From contig DASVTZ010000072.1 of the NCBI GenBank assembly GCA_036387335.1, forward strand, positions 1 to 32,862: a stretch of 32,862 nucleotides of DNA, given 5' to 3'. This DNA is from Longimicrobium sp. Lineage in GTDB: Bacteria; Gemmatimonadota; Gemmatimonadetes; Longimicrobiales; Longimicrobiaceae. Each line of letters begins with the position of its first letter. Position 1 is the first letter of the stretch. The notes under the pieces were generated by a model. It saw nothing but the letters and a program-made list of their open reading frames with translations. It did no database searches and was not told the DNA's origin. A program made the translations under genes and the position numbers. This document shows, one piece after another, positions 2-6,901 of this stretch.

Positions 2-1684
2 GTGCAGGACTTCATCATCCTCTTCGCATCCATGCGCCGCGACGGCAAGTCGCTGGGGCAGATGGCGCGCGAGGAGATCAACACGACCGCCGGGTTGATC
101 TCCATGGTGGCCGTCCTCGCCATCATGGCGATCCTGCTGGCCGTGCTCGCGCTCATCGTCGTCAACGCGCTGGCGCATTCGCCCTGGGGGCTCTTCACCA
201 TCGCCTGCACCATTCCCATCGCCCTGCTGATGGGGTGGTGGATGCACGCCTTCCGCCCCGGCCGCGTGGGCGAGGCATCCGCGATCGGGGTGGTGCTGGT
301 GATGGCGGCGGTGGTGGCCGGCGGCTGGGTGGCCAGGAACCCGGCGTGGGCCGCCGTCTTCACCGTCGAGAAGACGACGCTCGTCTGGCTGATGGCCGCG
401 TACGGCTTCGTCGCGTCCGTGCTCCCGGTGTGGGTCCTTCTCTGCCCGCGCGACTACCTGAGCACCTTCCTCAAGATCGGCACCATCCTGGGGCTCGCGG
501 TGGGGATCCTGGTGTCGCTCCCCGTCATCCACATGCCGGCGATGACGAAGTTCGTGGATGGCACGGGGCCCGTGTTCAGCGGCAAGCTCTTCCCCTTCGC
601 CTTCATCACCGTGGCGTGCGGGGCCATCAGCGGCTTCCACGCGCTGGTCGCCAGCGGCACCACACCCAAGATGCTGGAGCGCGAGTCCGATGCGCGCCTG
701 GTGGGCTACGGCGCCATGCTCATGGAGTCGTTCGTCGGCGTGATGGCGATGGTCGCGGCCTCCATCCTGGAGCCGGGCGTCTACTTCGCCATCAACGCCC
801 CCGCCGGCGTGGTGGGCGCCACCGTGGAGACGGCCACGCGCACCATCGCCACCTGGGGCTTCGTGGTCACCCCCGAAGACATGACGCGCCTCGCCGCGCA
901 GATGGGCGAGACGACGCTCCTGGCACGCACCGGAGGCGCGCCGTCGCTGGCGGTGGGGATGTCGCAGATCTTCAGCGGCGTCTTCGGCGGGTCGGGGATG
1001 TCGGCGCTCTGGTACCACTTCGCCATCATGTTCGAGGCGCTCTTCATCCTCACCACCATCGACACCGGCACGCGCGTCGGCCGCTTCATGCTGCAGGAGC
1101 TGCTGGGGCACGTGTGGAAGCCGCTCGGGCGCACCTCGTGGTACCCCAGCATCGTCCTTTCCAGCGGGCTGATCGTCTTCGGCTGGGCCTACTTCCTCTA
1201 CCAGGGCGTGGTGGACCCGCTGGGCGGCATCAACTCGCTCTGGCCCCTCTTCGGCATCTCCAACCAGCTCCTGGCCGCCGTCGCGCTCTGCGTGGGGACG
1301 ACGGTGCTAATCAAAAGCGGCAAGGCGCGCTTCGCCTGGACGACGCTCCTGCCGCTCGCCTGGCTCTGCGCCGTCACCTTCACCGCCGGCTGGCAAAAGG
1401 TCTTCGCCGCCGACCCCAAGCTGGGCTTCCTGGCCCACGCCGCCATGATCCGCGACAAGCTCGCCGCCGGCCAGCTCCCCCCCGGCGCCAAGACCCTCGC
1501 CGACGCGCGCCACATGATCTTCAACGACCGCCTTGACGCCGTCGTCGCGCTCGCCTTCATGGCCGTCGCCGTGCTGGTGATCGTCGTCTCGGTGCGCGAG
1601 TGGCTGCTCTTGCTCCGGCACCGCAAGCCTGCGGTGCTGTGCGAGGCGCCGTTCGTGGCGAGCGGGCTGGTGGCGGGGGATTGA
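2..1684 (+). CDS. cstA: CstA-family carbon starvation / pyruvate-peptide transporter (5' truncated by window edge)
   Basis: This is the C-terminal ~560 residues of an inner-membrane CstA/BtsT family transporter. The family imports pyruvate and has been linked to peptide uptake during carbon starvation. The window opens inside the gene at the conserved segment VQDFIILFASMRRDGKSLGQ, which lies roughly 130 residues into full-length family members of about 700 aa, so the GTG at position 2 is an internal valine and not a start. About ten or more hydrophobic segments follow, with conserved stretches such as ACGAISGFHALVASGTTPK, FSGVFGGSG, ALFILTTIDTGTRVGRF and LWPLFGISNQLLAA. The frame closes at TGA 1682-1684, immediately before the compositional change that opens the accessory island. 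Family assignment is secure. The real substrate (pyruvate or peptides) cannot be read from sequence. Confidence 0.93.
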   Translation: MQDFIILFASMRRDGKSLGQMAREEINTTAGLISMVAVLAIMAILLAVLALIVVNALAHSPWGLFTIACTIPIALLMGWWMHAFRPGRVGEASAIGVVLVMAAVVAGGWVARNPAWAAVFTVEKTTLVWLMAAYGFVASVLPVWVLLCPRDYLSTFLKIGTILGLAVGILVSLPVIHMPAMTKFVDGTGPVFSGKLFPFAFITVACGAISGFHALVASGTTPKMLERESDARLVGYGAMLMESFVGVMAMVAASILEPGVYFAINAPAGVVGATVETATRTIATWGFVVTPEDMTRLAAQMGETTLLARTGGAPSLAVGMSQIFSGVFGGSGMSALWYHFAIMFEALFILTTIDTGTRVGRFMLQELLGHVWKPLGRTSWYPSIVLSSGLIVFGWAYFLYQGVVDPLGGINSLWPLFGISNQLLAAVALCVGTTVLIKSGKARFAWTTLLPLAWLCAVTFTAGWQKVFAADPKLGFLAHAAMIRDKLAAGQLPPGAKTLADARHMIFNDRLDAVVALAFMAVAVLVIVVSVREWLLLLRHRKPAVLCEAPFVASGLVAGD

Positions 1685-1840
1685 GATCGACAGCTAAATT
1701 AGACGACTACCTCGGCCGCCTGACGAGACTGAACGCGAGGGGCTAACAAGGTGAGCGCGTGCGTGCTAGCTTCACTTAAGCGCAGTCTTAGCGACCTCCT
1801 CATTTTTATTCTACCTTACCTTCCAACGCGCTTGAGGCAA

Positions 1841-2431
1841 ATGCCCGATGATCCGGTCATCATAGAGCGAATAGCAAGGTTTAAAAACGACCTTGCGCTT
1901 ATGAACCCGCCTCAACTCGTCAGGAAGTATGTCGCTTTTGGCGATGCGTACATCCTCCCAGATGACCAGTTTTTTTCATTGAAAGAGGAAGTGGCCCACC
2001 ACTTCCAAGTTCACCCGAACCAAGTGTTCTTAGTCGGTTCCGCGAAGCTCGGATTCAGCATTGCGCGTAGAAAGCGATATAGACCCTTCACAGACACTTC
2101 CGATATCGACGTGGCGGTAGTATCAGACCGGCTCTTCGACGGCATCTGGGAAGATGTATTTCGCTATCGATACCAAGTAGGATACTGGCCTCAGGAGAGC
2201 GAGTTTAAGAACTATCTCTTTCGCGGCTGGATCCGTCCAGACAAGCTTCCGCCGGCGAACTCATTTCGACTGGGGGCAGAATGGTGGGCTTTTTTCAGCG
2301 AACTTACGAGTAGCGGACGATACGGTGTGTACAAGATCGCTGCAGGGCTGTACCGTTCGGATTTTTTCTTTGAGAGTTACCAGAGCATTTGCGTAAGCGA
2401 ATGCCAAGAGGAGGCGAGAATACAGCCATGA
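1841..2431 (+). CDS. Nucleotidyltransferase-fold protein, first gene of an NTase/DUF262 pair
   Basis: A 196-aa protein with a Pol-beta-like nucleotidyltransferase signature: VGSAKLGFS (Gly66-Ser67) followed about 20 residues later by DTSDIDVAVVS, whose Asp88 and Asp90 would be the metal-binding pair. The rest is a conserved-looking aromatic region (YLFRGWIRPDKLPP, EWWAFFSEL, YGVYKIAAGLYRS) that I do not recognise as a named domain. Its stop overlaps the start of the DUF262 gene as ATGA (2428-2431), which implies translational coupling and a joint function. Start choice is uncertain. ATG 1841 gives a compact N terminus leading into RFKNDL. An in-frame GTG at 1751 has a better ribosome-binding site (GAGGGG, 8 nt spacing) and would add 30 hydrophobic residues. 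Composition is much more A+T-rich than the flanking genes, with codons such as ATA, TTA and AGA, which suggests horizontal acquisition. No substrate can be inferred; a tRNA- or protein-modifying NTase or a signal synthase are all possible. Confidence 0.8.
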   Translation: MPDDPVIIERIARFKNDLALMNPPQLVRKYVAFGDAYILPDDQFFSLKEEVAHHFQVHPNQVFLVGSAKLGFSIARRKRYRPFTDTSDIDVAVVSDRLFDGIWEDVFRYRYQVGYWPQESEFKNYLFRGWIRPDKLPPANSFRLGAEWWAFFSELTSSGRYGVYKIAAGLYRSDFFFESYQSICVSECQEEARIQP

Positions 2432-3453
2432 GAACGACCGCCACGAACCGTAAGCTTAGGACGCTCCTGACGGGGATCCGAAGCGGAGCACTAATTCCAC
2501 GCCCTGAGTTTCAGCGCCGCCTCGTTTGGTCTAACCGGCACAAAGTAGCCTTCATCGGAACAGTGCTCGATGCTTATCCGTTTCCAGAGATCTACATTGC
2601 TGCCGGCCATGTGGACTCAGAGACAGGAGAGGGTACAGAGATGCTGGTTGATGGGCAGCAGCGCATCACCACTCTCTACCAGTATTTCCACGCATCCTCA
2701 GAGCTGAAGCTGCCGGCTGAGATCCCACCTTACTCCAACCTGTCCGAGGACGCGAAGATGGCGTTTCTCGAGTATGACGTGGTAGTACGAGACCTCGGAC
2801 CCATGGGAATTCCGGAAATTAAGGAGATATTTACAAGGATCAACTCGACAAACTATGCACTGAATGCGATGGAGATACAAAACGCCCGATTCGAGGGCGA
2901 CTTCAAGAAGTTTGGGGAGACGCTAGCAGAAAACCCGTTCTTCGAGCGTCACCGGGTCTTTAGTGCAGCTGACATTCGCCGGATGCACGATCTGCGCTTC
3001 GTGTTGACACTCGTTGTGACCATACTTTCCACATACTTCAACCGAGATGACGAACTCGACGCGTACTTGGCGAGGTTCAATGATGAATTTAGCGAGCGGG
3101 AACGTGTCACCCAAGAGCTCACTTGCGTTTTCGCCTATGTCGACAGTCTAGATTTTGATCTTAGAAGCCGAGTTTGGAGAAAACCAGATCTTTTTTCGAC
3201 CCTAGTTGAACTTCATCGTGTCCTCGTGAAAGGTACGCGCGTTCCGGAGGCGGAAGCAGTCGCCCCAGAGTTGAAGAAGTTCTTCGCGAGAGTAGAATCT
3301 ATCAACGAATCGGATGAAGCCGATTCGGAGTTGCTCGCTTACTATAAGGCCTCGATTCAGGCAACGAACGACCGTAGCAGCAGAATCACACGTGGGGCTA
3401 TTATCCAGAGGGTCATCCGAGAGGCGTCAGGTGGGCAATTAACCGTGCTTTAG
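2428..3453 (+). CDS. DUF262 (GmrS/ParB-like) domain protein, second gene of the NTase/DUF262 pair
   Basis: A 341-aa protein with the DUF262 (GmrSD N-terminal, ParB/sulfiredoxin-like NTPase) hallmarks in order: IPRPEFQRRLVW (residues 23-34), LDAYPFPEIYIA, the defining DGQQRITTL (75-83), and EIFTRINSTNYALNAMEIQ near residues 135-155. In GmrSD, SspE and BrxU this fold uses DGQQR in nucleotide hydrolysis that gates a DUF1524 HNH nuclease. Here no HNH or DUF1524 signature follows; the C-terminal ~170 residues are helical-looking and unrecognised, ending in RGAIIQRVIREASGG. The start was chosen at ATG 2428 because it overlaps the upstream stop by ATGA; TTG 2389 and ATG 2401 are in-frame alternatives. 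The gene shares the low G+C of its partner. The pair is most simply read as a defence-type module in which the NTase replaces or supplements the usual nuclease half. That role is inference. Confidence 0.85.
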   Translation: MRTTATNRKLRTLLTGIRSGALIPRPEFQRRLVWSNRHKVAFIGTVLDAYPFPEIYIAAGHVDSETGEGTEMLVDGQQRITTLYQYFHASSELKLPAEIPPYSNLSEDAKMAFLEYDVVVRDLGPMGIPEIKEIFTRINSTNYALNAMEIQNARFEGDFKKFGETLAENPFFERHRVFSAADIRRMHDLRFVLTLVVTILSTYFNRDDELDAYLARFNDEFSERERVTQELTCVFAYVDSLDFDLRSRVWRKPDLFSTLVELHRVLVKGTRVPEAEAVAPELKKFFARVESINESDEADSELLAYYKASIQATNDRSSRITRGAIIQRVIREASGGQLTVL

Positions 3454-3773
3454 GTCCCATTGCGGCGAGCCGATCTTCAATTCGGCCACCAGCCGGTGGT
3501 GCCGAGCGATCCCGGAACGCGGCAACTGTGTAGCCGTTTGGCTGCAGGAGAAGACTGCCCGTGCAACCAGGGGCGGGTTTGCTATAGGCGCGGAAACCTG
3601 CGGCTCTACATAGGCCTTTGCGACATCCACGCCGCGCATGCCCATTTTTCTGGGAGCGAGGTGACGACTCAGCGCATGAAGAGCTACGTTCCCGGGCTGT
3701 TTGATTCGGCTCGGAAGGGGCATAATTGTCACTGCACATTCTTTTTCCTCGCGCTTCAGCGGATGGGGGGGGA
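3454..3773. other. Gene-poor stretch between DUF262 gene and eroded antitoxin; possible transposase debris
   Basis: No convincing gene is seen in these ~320 bases. A plus-strand frame from 3460 is rich in Cys, His and Arg and resembles no family. On the minus strand a 68-codon frame from ATG 3645 to the TAA at 3439 begins MGMRGVDVAKAYVEP. This recalls the first RuvC-like strand of IS110-family transposases (G-[IV]-D-[VI]-[AS]-K), but the remaining residues do not follow the family, so at most it is an eroded end. The base composition is intermediate between the A+T-rich module upstream and the G+C-rich chromosome. Confidence 0.35.
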
Positions 3774-4040
3774 GTGACCGGAATCTGGGACGCGGTCGGG
3801 CAGGATCTCCGTTTGGGAGTGACGACCTCCCCGCAGGCCGACGATGCAGCGGGCGGCCTCTCTGATGTTGAGCACGCGTGGGAGGGTGAGATCCGGCGCC
3901 GGTTGGCTGAGATCGAGGCGGGCACGGCGGACTTAATTCCCGCCGAAGATGTCTTCGCGGAACTGCGCCGCCGTCGCGCCGCGCTGGAGGACGATGGCGA
4001 CAATGGCCAACCCCGGAGAACCGTCTTCGACCAGATCTGA
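3774..4040 (+). pseudogene. N-terminally eroded addiction-module (RelB/TIGR02574-like) antitoxin
   Basis: The C-terminal half of this 88-codon frame, VEHAWEGEIRRRLAEIEAG followed by TADLIPAEDVFAELRRR, matches the typical end of small 'putative addiction module component' antitoxins (AW..EI.RRL.EI..G....IP.EEV...L). The expected N-terminal helix block, usually a run like LPPEERAELAEELL..SLD, is absent. The preceding residues are unrelated, and I did not find the block in the other two frames. GTG 3774 and GTG 3819 are possible starts, neither with a well-placed ribosome-binding site. No RelE/ParE-type toxin follows; the next gene is another antitoxin. It is best read as a remnant of a toxin-antitoxin locus. 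A short functional protein cannot be excluded. Confidence 0.55.
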
Positions 4041-4481: not shown

Positions 4482-6872
4482 TCAGCGGCGGAACAGGTAG
4501 CTGATCTTGAAGAACAGCCCGTCCGCGCGCGGTTGGAGGCCGGCGAAGCGGAAGGCTTCGTCGTCGGTGACTTCGCGGCCGTAGCCGAGGAAGGCGACGG
4601 TGCCGGGGGAGGGGCGGTAGCTCAGGAGGAGGTCCAGGCGCAGCGGGTTGAGCTGCGGCTCCGAGTACGACGGGAGGTTGCCGCGGCGCACGCGGAACGG
4701 CTCGCCGTCGCGCAGGTACTCGCCGCCGTCCGGGGCGCGCAGGACGTCGACCTCCTCGACGGAGTACTGTGCCAGACCCCGTACGGCCAGGGCGCGGGTG
4801 AGCTGGTACTCCACGCGCAGCCGCGGCACCAGCGCCCGCGAGTAGCGCGAGTCGTCGGAGGCGCGGCGGAGGACCGAGTAGCGCAGCCGGCCGTCCACCC
4901 GCAGCGACGGGGTGGGGCGCAGTTCCACCGCGGCCGCGATGCCGCTCTCCGCGCCGCGCGTACCCTCCGCGAAGATGGGGGTGGCGCCTGCGAAGAGCTC
5001 CACGGCGATGTCCGCGGTCTTGAAGTGCGACGACTGCGCCTGCAGCGAGATGCTGTGCAGCCCGCCCATGCGCGGGTTCGGCCCGATCAGCGAGTCGCCG
5101 GTCTCCGTGCGGCCGTCCGGGCCGGTGCGCGAGAAGCCCGCGTAGTCGGCGAGGTGCAGGGTGTAGAAGGCGCGGTCCACGCCCAGCTCGACCTCCAGGT
5201 TCCCGCGCAGCGACGCCTTCGCCTCCACGGAGAGCGACCCCTCCACGGCCTCGTCACCACTCCAGAAGCCGCGCCCGTCCCAGTAGCGGCGGCCGCCCTG
5301 GCGCAGGTCGAGGCGCTGGAGGAGGGCGCCGCGCGCGCCGTACCAGGAGACGCGGTTGCCTCCGGAGATCTCCGTGATCCCACGCCGGCGCACGAAGCCG
5401 GTTTCGGTGCGGAAGCTGGAGGGGACGTCGCGCAGGGTGGCGAGATAGCCCCAGCGCCGGCCCGTGCGGTCCAGGTAGAGGTTGGCGATGTGCCCCACTT
5501 CGTCGTCGGTCGACACCGCCTGCCTCGCGCCGGGCGCTCCCGCCGAGTCGCGCCCGAAGGGGTCCGCGACCCACGAGCGCGTCCAGCTCCCGCCGCCCAG
5601 GATGCCCGCCGTGTACACACCGCCGAAGCGGATGCGCGCATCGGCCGCCGCCACGTGGTTGAAGGCGTCGCCGGTCTGGCGGCTGGTGGCGAGCGCCCCC
5701 AGCGTGGAGCCCGACGCGCCCACGTCGCGGCGCACGCGCGCGATGTGGACGACCGCCCGGTCTGCGCGCGGGGCGAAGCGGGCGGGTCGCGAGAGCGGGG
5801 CCTCGTCCACCGCGCCCAGGTACGCCAGGTTCAGCGCCCCCACCTTGCCGGTGAGCCGCGCGCCCACCGCCGGGTCCACCACCGAGCGGGTGTAGACCAG
5901 CGTCTCCGGCGTGGAGAAGAGGTCCGCGCCCTCCAGGAAGAACGGGCGCTTCTCCTGCAGCGAGATGGCGAAGCGCTCGTTGACGGTGATCTGGTCCGCG
6001 TCCGCCTCGATGGTGGAGAAGTCGGGGTTGATGGTGGCGTCGAGGGTCAGCTCGCTGGTGATGCCGTACTTGACGTTCACCCCCAGGTCGGGCTCGGTGG
6101 GGCCGCGCCGGAAGCCGTTCTCGCCGGTGCTCCCCTCGCGGCGCGCGGTGAGGGTGGGGTTGGCTTCGAAGAGGCGCCCCGGCCGCAGCCCGCGAATGCC
6201 GCGCAGCGTTCCGCTCTGCGCCAGCTCCGACGGCGTGCTCTGCAGGCGCGGCGCCCAGCTTTCCTGCGCGGCGGTGGCGGGGAGCACGCGGATGACGTTG
6301 AAGCCCCAGCGCTGCTCGCCGCCCGCGGGAAACTTCAGGCTCTTGAGCGGGATGCGCAGCTCCACCTCGTAGCCGTCGCCGGTGAGGCGCCCGCGCGAGT
6401 CGAAGAGGAAGTCGGGGGCGAAGTCCGTCCCGCGTCCCTCCGCCAGGATGCCATCCTGCTGGATCCCCAGCGGGTTGACGTAGAAGACGAAGGCGCGGCG
6501 CTGGTCCGCGAAGGTGTCCAGCAGGATGCGGACGTGGTCGTCGCTGGTGATCTGGTCGCGCTCGGCGAGCGTGGAGCGGATGCGCGACGGCTCGGCGGCG
6601 TACGCGCGCACGCCGATGTAGAGGTCGCGCGGCGTGTAGAACACGCGCACCTCCGTCCGCTCCGACGCCGGTGACCCCTCCGCCGGGCGGGACTGCGTGA
6701 AGTCGCCGAGGAGCGCCGCGGTGGACCACGCCTCCTCGTCCAGCCGGCCGTCCACGCGGATCTGCGCCGATTCCAGGCGCGGCGGGTCGGCCACGCGGGG
6801 AGTGCCGCGCAGGGTATCTTCCTGGAAAGGCGAAGCCGCCACGATTGCGGCGGCCAGGAGCGTTGCCATCAT
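4482..6872 (-). CDS. DUF5916 outer-membrane protein with N-terminal CBM9-like domain
   Basis: A ~796-aa exported protein. A short signal peptide (MMATLLAAAIVAASPFQ) precedes a carbohydrate-binding-family-9-like domain: IRVDGRLDEEAW near residues 40-50, EVRVFYTPRDLYIGVRAY and DDHVRILLDTF. A conserved VNPLGIQQDG segment and a long C-terminal region with DLGVNVKYGITSELTLDATI and KRPFFLEGADLF are typical of DUF5916 proteins and are predicted to form an outer-membrane beta barrel; the chain ends KISYLFRR with a terminal aromatic/Arg. Length matches the family (700-900 aa). The start is ATG 6872 (or the adjacent ATG 6869, or GTG 6878), supported by a promoter 23-60 nt upstream. DUF5916 has no assigned biochemical role. 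Binding of a surface glycan is inference from the CBM9-like part. Confidence 0.88.
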   Translation of the reverse strand: MMATLLAAAIVAASPFQEDTLRGTPRVADPPRLESAQIRVDGRLDEEAWSTAALLGDFTQSRPAEGSPASERTEVRVFYTPRDLYIGVRAYAAEPSRIRSTLAERDQITSDDHVRILLDTFADQRRAFVFYVNPLGIQQDGILAEGRGTDFAPDFLFDSRGRLTGDGYEVELRIPLKSLKFPAGGEQRWGFNVIRVLPATAAQESWAPRLQSTPSELAQSGTLRGIRGLRPGRLFEANPTLTARREGSTGENGFRRGPTEPDLGVNVKYGITSELTLDATINPDFSTIEADADQITVNERFAISLQEKRPFFLEGADLFSTPETLVYTRSVVDPAVGARLTGKVGALNLAYLGAVDEAPLSRPARFAPRADRAVVHIARVRRDVGASGSTLGALATSRQTGDAFNHVAAADARIRFGGVYTAGILGGGSWTRSWVADPFGRDSAGAPGARQAVSTDDEVGHIANLYLDRTGRRWGYLATLRDVPSSFRTETGFVRRRGITEISGGNRVSWYGARGALLQRLDLRQGGRRYWDGRGFWSGDEAVEGSLSVEAKASLRGNLEVELGVDRAFYTLHLADYAGFSRTGPDGRTETGDSLIGPNPRMGGLHSISLQAQSSHFKTADIAVELFAGATPIFAEGTRGAESGIAAAVELRPTPSLRVDGRLRYSVLRRASDDSRYSRALVPRLRVEYQLTRALAVRGLAQYSVEEVDVLRAPDGGEYLRDGEPFRVRRGNLPSYSEPQLNPLRLDLLLSYRPSPGTVAFLGYGREVTDDEAFRFAGLQPRADGLFFKISYLFRR

Positions 6873-6901
6873 CTGCACACTGGGCGTTCGGGAAGGTGCA
6901 A

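Follow-up and report, generated by a model that had tools for sequence, protein, structure and literature searches.

A widespread nucleotidyltransferase–DUF262 gene pair, a probable new system of anti-phage or toxin–antitoxin-like type

Introduction

BrxU and SspE use DUF262 as an NTPase to gate a nuclease. The locus described here raises the question of what a DUF262 protein does when the nuclease is absent and the adjoining gene encodes a protein resembling a nucleotidyltransferase (NTase). We analysed a stretch of 32,862 nucleotides of DNA from Longimicrobium sp. (the window), in which two overlapping genes, here called gene A and gene B, had initially been annotated from the letters alone as a candidate uncharacterised defence module. 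Since the two genes are tightly linked, occur in at least 13 phyla and are found in anti-phage slots of prophages, they probably make up an anti-phage system, or one akin to toxin–antitoxin pairs, that has not been described before.

Results

Locus organisation and chromosomal slot

The features of the locus are collected in Table 1. We confirmed the ATGA overlap of the two genes at 2428-2431, and found that the junction between them varies across the family from an overlap to a gap of a dozen bases. The GC content of the pair is about 52% (50-55%) compared with roughly 70% in the surrounding genome. In the window it is flanked by cstA, by metabolic genes and by an outer-membrane gene of the DUF5916 type. 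No tRNA or structured RNA was found in a search of the window, and a scan of 1600-3800 for promoters and terminators gave signal at chance level. The genome holds nine matches to the DUF5916-type gene (window 4482-6878), and each of the other genomes of the genus holds 6-11.

Table 1. Coordinates of the features of the locus in the window
Feature	Position	Strand	Basis and remarks
Gene A, divergent nucleotidyltransferase-fold protein, 196 aa	1841..2431	+	No curated family above threshold; PHROG 32008; ATG at 1841, TGA ending at 2431
Gene B, stand-alone DUF262 (GmrSD_N, ParB/Srx-fold), 341 aa	2428..3453	+	Pfam, PADLOC, model; ATG at 2428, TAG ending at 3453
ATGA start/stop overlap of genes A and B	2428..2431	+	Read from sequence
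AGGAGG ribosome-binding motif of gene B, within gene A	2409..2414	+	Read from sequence
GS motif, G66 and S67 of gene A	2036..2041	+	Invariant in 82/82 sequences
D-x-D motif, D88 and D90 of gene A	2102..2110	+	Invariant in 82/82 sequences; 20 residues past GS
DGQQR NTP-pocket motif of gene B	2650..2664	+	D75, G76, Q78 and R79 invariant in alignment A7
Foreign segment, about 50-55% GC	1685..3560	.	Surrounding DNA about 70% GC
Unstab_antitox (PF09720) addiction-module antitoxin-like ORF, downstream of the pair	3777..4040	+	Also in G251

In a sister species (G251), whose CstA is 96% identical, the chromosomal slot of the pair is occupied by an MntA-HepT toxin–antitoxin pair. There, an 863-bp segment replaces 1685..3560 of the window and the flanks are conserved on both sides. 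The replacing genes (L184 1870-2506, contig C62) lie between cstA and the DUF5916 gene, with the NTase MntA (PF01909, 7.7e-14) preceding HepT (PF01934, 1e-24). The Unstab_antitox ORF is found downstream in both the window and G251, with 80% DNA identity. Another species of the genus (G347) also carries the NTase–DUF262 pair (L195 1501-3227, contig C71), off the contig that bears its cstA, and this pair was apparently gained independently. The genome of the window itself includes a second cstA fragment, 93% identical and located at a contig end (G000:C35:1-1312, L185), which may point to mixed strains or a contaminated assembly.

Gene A, a divergent nucleotidyltransferase-like protein

Gene A contains GSAKLGFS...FTDTSDIDVAVVS, and the NTase signature that had been proposed for it is present at the residues as numbered (G66, S67, D88 and D90). 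The match of gene A to NTP_transf_2 in Pfam was sub-threshold (E 0.085), and no NTase family scored above the cut-off in Pfam, NCBIfam or PADLOC-DB 2023. PHROG 32008, a phage family of unassigned function, was matched by 86 of the 87 NTase members including the window protein. An AlphaFold2 model of gene A (pLDDT 95.4, pTM 0.90) had no match below E 1 in a Foldseek search of the PDB; the faint matches (E > 1) included terminal nucleotidyltransferases and one CD-NTase.

Five residues, G66, S67, S87, D88 and D90, are invariant in all 82 aligned NTase sequences, and the spacing from GS to DxD is 17-29 residues across the family, mostly 20. This invariance of the nucleotide motif indicates that binding or transfer of a nucleotide is under selection. 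In pol-beta-type NTases, a third metal-binding acid sits in the third core strand. The predicted third core strand of gene A (166-171) has almost no acid across the alignment, and efficient nucleotidyl transfer is thus uncertain. We considered D134, in a GWIRPD motif, as a replacement for the third acid, but this position is acidic in only about 80% of members and therefore provides no universal ligand.

Assignment of gene A to a known defence protein was also rejected, the window protein having no PADLOC match. The oligonucleotide-cyclase models of PADLOC weakly matched a few NTase relatives (best E 2.3e-4) and did not match the window NTase, and a search of named phages with a single NTase query (L124) found no match. 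In addition, gene A was rejected as an MntA. The MntA protein has the motif GSX10DXD plus D71 (PMC7641770), whereas most members of the present family have GSX20DXD and lack the third acid, and gene A is about twice as long. Its match to PF01909 is below the cut-off, and the NTase profile could be matched to a true MntA profile over only 13 columns. The spacing, the missing D71 equivalent and the 13-column match place gene A outside the MntA family, whatever its working mode.

Gene B, a stand-alone DUF262 protein

The initial identification of gene B as a DUF262 protein was upheld, GmrSD_N/DUF262 (PF03235, E 1.4e-21) being the sole domain found by Pfam, with FQRRLVW at residues 28-34 and DGQQRITTL at residues 75-83. 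The D-G-x-Q-R pattern is kept throughout the aligned DUF262 members, as VDGQQR in gene B and as exact DGQQR in 65 of 79 members. The nuclease domain is missing as had been stated: the Pfam scan found no DUF1524 HNH domain in gene B, and a DHIxP pattern occurred in one of the 79 B sequences. PADLOC matched gene B to NsnA over almost its full length (E 5.6e-30), and all 89 of the 89 DUF262 members matched this model, which we take to be a component of Menshen. The AlphaFold2 model of gene B (pLDDT 91.7, pTM 0.68) has a helical C-terminal half, and its closest structural matches were BrxU (E 7e-5) followed by SspE.

Coupling of the two genes

Using DUF262 as bait, we kept the best 80 of 181 relatives on genome contigs, together with 10 viral loci. 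In 76/80 genome loci and 10/10 viral loci, the ORF directly preceding DUF262 belongs to the NTase family. Among the four exceptions, L055 is cut at a contig end yet shows the C-terminus of the NTase, L079 has NTase remnants beside DUF262, L050 has a faint NTase trace at most, and the archaeal L096 has no NTase by its DUF262. Because these loci were picked by their likeness to gene B, the reciprocal search starting from the NTase matters. An NTase profile was run against 764 genomes, 395 from the window's phylum and 369 from the class that includes Shewanella ANA-3, and gave seven true NTase matches; DUF262 lay directly downstream of six of them. A gammaproteobacterial match (L193, E 3.6e-4) resembled an ATPase and was set aside as false. 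Each of 47 pair-bearing genomes gave exactly one match to the profile.

The two genes have also been inherited together. Pairwise distances of A and B were correlated over 73 pairs (r=0.85, against a permutation maximum of 0.13), and the NTase-linked DUF262 proteins cluster on the tree, with 5 label changes compared with a shuffled mean of 26. The adjacency of A and B is far beyond chance and the pair is a real module, so that the coupling proposed in the initial annotation holds from either gene. The nearest genes beyond the pair vary from locus to locus, and the minimal unit therefore consists of two genes.

In one viral contig (L123 5372-5985) the NTase ahead of an intact DUF262 gene is split between two frames, which may reflect a pseudogene, an assembly error or a frameshift. 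In two Poribacteria loci (L050 4407-7029 and L079 4402-6456), DNA-methylase-like and HNH genes are located just upstream of DUF262, and the NTase is decayed or gone.

Other partners of either gene

The seventh NTase of the reciprocal search (G186) follows a gene for a peptidoglycan transglycosylase instead of preceding DUF262, and a relative on an Aliarcobacter plasmid likewise follows a peptidoglycan transglycosylase. In these loci (L006 7352-8606, and L004 from 1183 to about 2800 on the minus strand in G186) the NTase overlaps the upstream stand-alone transglycosylase (PF00912), and the two NTases are 42.5% identical. Here the NTase may belong to a second module, together with an unrelated partner. 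The Aliarcobacter genes have DUF4365, phospholipase D-like and TIR proteins in their neighbourhood.

DUF262 genes were also seen in other company. Klebsiella phage ST16-OXA48phi5.4 (Peduoviridae) carries DUF262 followed by RiboL-PSP-HEPN among genes of the tail region (L132 4884-6787), and on an Asticcacaulis plasmid (L009 5947-8093) a DUF262 gene overlaps a protein-kinase gene.

Distribution and genomic context

Relatives of the pair in genomes span at least 13 named phyla, which are mixed on the tree, and carriage is sparse: 5/395 genomes in the window's phylum, 2/369 in the class of Shewanella ANA-3, and four of 5,426 E. coli genomes, the last by DNA similarity with two queries. The pair is also carried on a 6.2-kb plasmid.

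In E. coli strain 1500, the pair is located between the gpA replication endonuclease and gpQ portal genes of a P2-like element, and a viral contig whose P2-like backbone is nearly identical to that of strain 1500 has a pair in the same slot. The two gpA-gpQ pairs (L129 3286-4880 and L127 5352-7029, respectively) are diverged. This hotspot of P2 also holds old and tin (PMC9122126). In three further E. coli, from pigs, a pair lies inside a prophage-like region. A raw tally of the 141 nearest neighbours of the relatives included some defence genes (methyltransferases, restriction enzymes, ThsB and OloB) as well as three phage integrases, and the Pfam tally of the nearest neighbours was led by TPR and housekeeping families. 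In the window we found no defence island; since the flanking genes are housekeeping genes, the island context that had been suggested for this locus is unsupported.

Discussion

What is new here is that a DUF262 module has a nucleotidyltransferase as its partner, the DUF262 half being of a known kind. Gene B resembles GmrSD, BrxU and SspE in its ParB/Srx-fold DUF262 NTPase domain with FQR and DGQQR motifs, but these proteins have a DUF1524 HNH nuclease, whereas gene B has none and its partner is the NTase directly upstream. Menshen, Dazbog and PD-T4-2 contain DUF262 without DUF1524, have other partners and defend against phage (PMC10952713), and their DUF262 protein stands alone as gene B does. 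However, the DUF262 protein of Menshen pairs with a predicted OLD nuclease, whereas the NTase–DUF262 pair has no third conserved gene, and no OLD-family nuclease was annotated in loci L005, L129, L130 and L131 or among the window neighbours. The NTase did not match the models of Menshen, Dazbog or PD-T4-2, except for a marginal match to PADLOC NsnC in one relative (E 0.0093), which is likely noise.

A further parallel is provided by DUF262 and HEPN genes, RiboL-PSP-HEPN having been reported in a pair with ‘ParB’ (PMC3710099). Such pairs also join DUF262 to one small partner gene and also occur on a Peduoviridae phage, but in them DUF262 is the first gene and its partner has the fold of a HEPN RNase, whereas here the partner is an NTase and precedes DUF262. 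We found no paper on an NTase–DUF262 pair in a literature search that was not exhaustive, and no curated NTase family lies above the cut-off, in keeping with the novelty initially ascribed to the pairing.

The reading that we tentatively favour, with rather less than even confidence, is that the pair is a mobile two-gene conflict module, most likely directed against phages or other mobile elements, with DUF262 as the switch and the NTase as the acting partner. This division of roles is suggested by analogy with the gating in BrxU and SspE, with Menshen, Dazbog and PD-T4-2, and with the design of the DUF262 and HEPN pairs. Once a trigger is met, the DGQQR pocket of gene B would bind and hydrolyse NTP, as in BrxU and SspE. 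The GS/DxD centre of gene A would then place a nucleotide on a host or phage target, which might be an RNA end or a protein, and this transfer would stop the infection. We infer a phage-defence phenotype, control of A by B and a target of this nature.

The defence role proposed in the initial annotation is retained in part: carriage in the gpA-gpQ hotspot and in prophages, patchy transfer and the swap with a toxin–antitoxin pair argue for it indirectly, and a local defence island is absent. Against the favoured reading stand the housekeeping neighbours, the missing third acid, the NTase-first order and the NTase relatives that are linked to transglycosylases.

Antitoxin genes are often the first of their operon. 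A reversal of roles, which we consider unlikely, gains some weight from the order of the genes, the slot swap and the second partner of the NTase. Gene A would in that case be an antitoxin or brake that nucleotidylates or binds DUF262, and gene B a toxic effector, either a ParB/Srx-fold NTPase or a DNA nickase, set free when the cell is infected or the module is lost. MntA-HepT is likewise an overlapping two-gene cassette with the NTase first, and a bona fide example occupies exactly the same slot in the sister species, although a shared slot need not imply a shared mechanism. The NTase-first order with translational overlap and the association of the NTase with an unrelated partner, the transglycosylase, also point this way. 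On the other hand, the partner in MntA-HepT is a HEPN protein with RX4HXY and that of gene A is DUF262, and the NTase is no MntA, with its spacing of mostly 20 rather than 10, its missing equivalent of D71 and a profile match of 13 columns. To our knowledge, no DUF262 protein is a toxin on its own. The reversed roles would nonetheless agree with the finding that MntA adenylylates its partner (PMC7641770) and that a ParB/Srx protein nicks single-stranded DNA and is inhibited by ATP (PMC12839542).

It is less likely still that the pair is selfish or regulatory cargo, serving addiction or the maintenance of a prophage or plasmid, with no effect on phage. The sparse, mosaic and single-copy carriage, the presence of the pair on a 6.2-kb plasmid, the addiction-module antitoxin alongside and the housekeeping neighbours in the window are consistent with such cargo. 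However, two diverged pairs in the anti-phage hotspot of P2, together with the precedent of the DUF262 family in phage defence (PMC10952713), argue against it.

Gene A shares the GS...DxD core with CBASS CD-NTases and terminal nucleotidyltransferases, with a faint resemblance in fold and, in a few relatives, in sequence, but is much smaller, with a three-strand core, no third acid and no significant match. A CBASS-like arrangement, in which a nucleotide messenger is produced or trimmed by the NTase and read by the conserved nucleotide pocket of DUF262, the receptor and effector, is very improbable: the PADLOC cyclase matches that might speak for it are weak and confined to few members, Foldseek found nothing below E 1 in the PDB, the third acid is missing, and no known CBASS effector was found beside the NTase, DUF262 being its sole constant partner across loci.

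A more novel reading, which we regard as doubtful, is an undescribed immune switch in which a divergent two-acid NTase and a DUF262 NTPase control one another through the transfer of nucleotides. The nucleotide might be written by the NTase on the DUF262 protein, on RNA or as a signal, and the DUF262 protein might sense or gate this step. We know of no such wiring in any DUF262 or NTase defence system.

In conclusion, the pair is compact (about 1.6 kb), its E. coli version resides in a P2-like prophage, and a profile could help annotators to find it. DUF262 recurs as a switch across bacterial immune systems and is best understood so far where it works with nucleases. The widespread and tight pairing with an NTase outside the curated Pfam, NCBIfam and PADLOC models suggests that nucleotide transfer, too, can be driven by DUF262 switches or can drive them.
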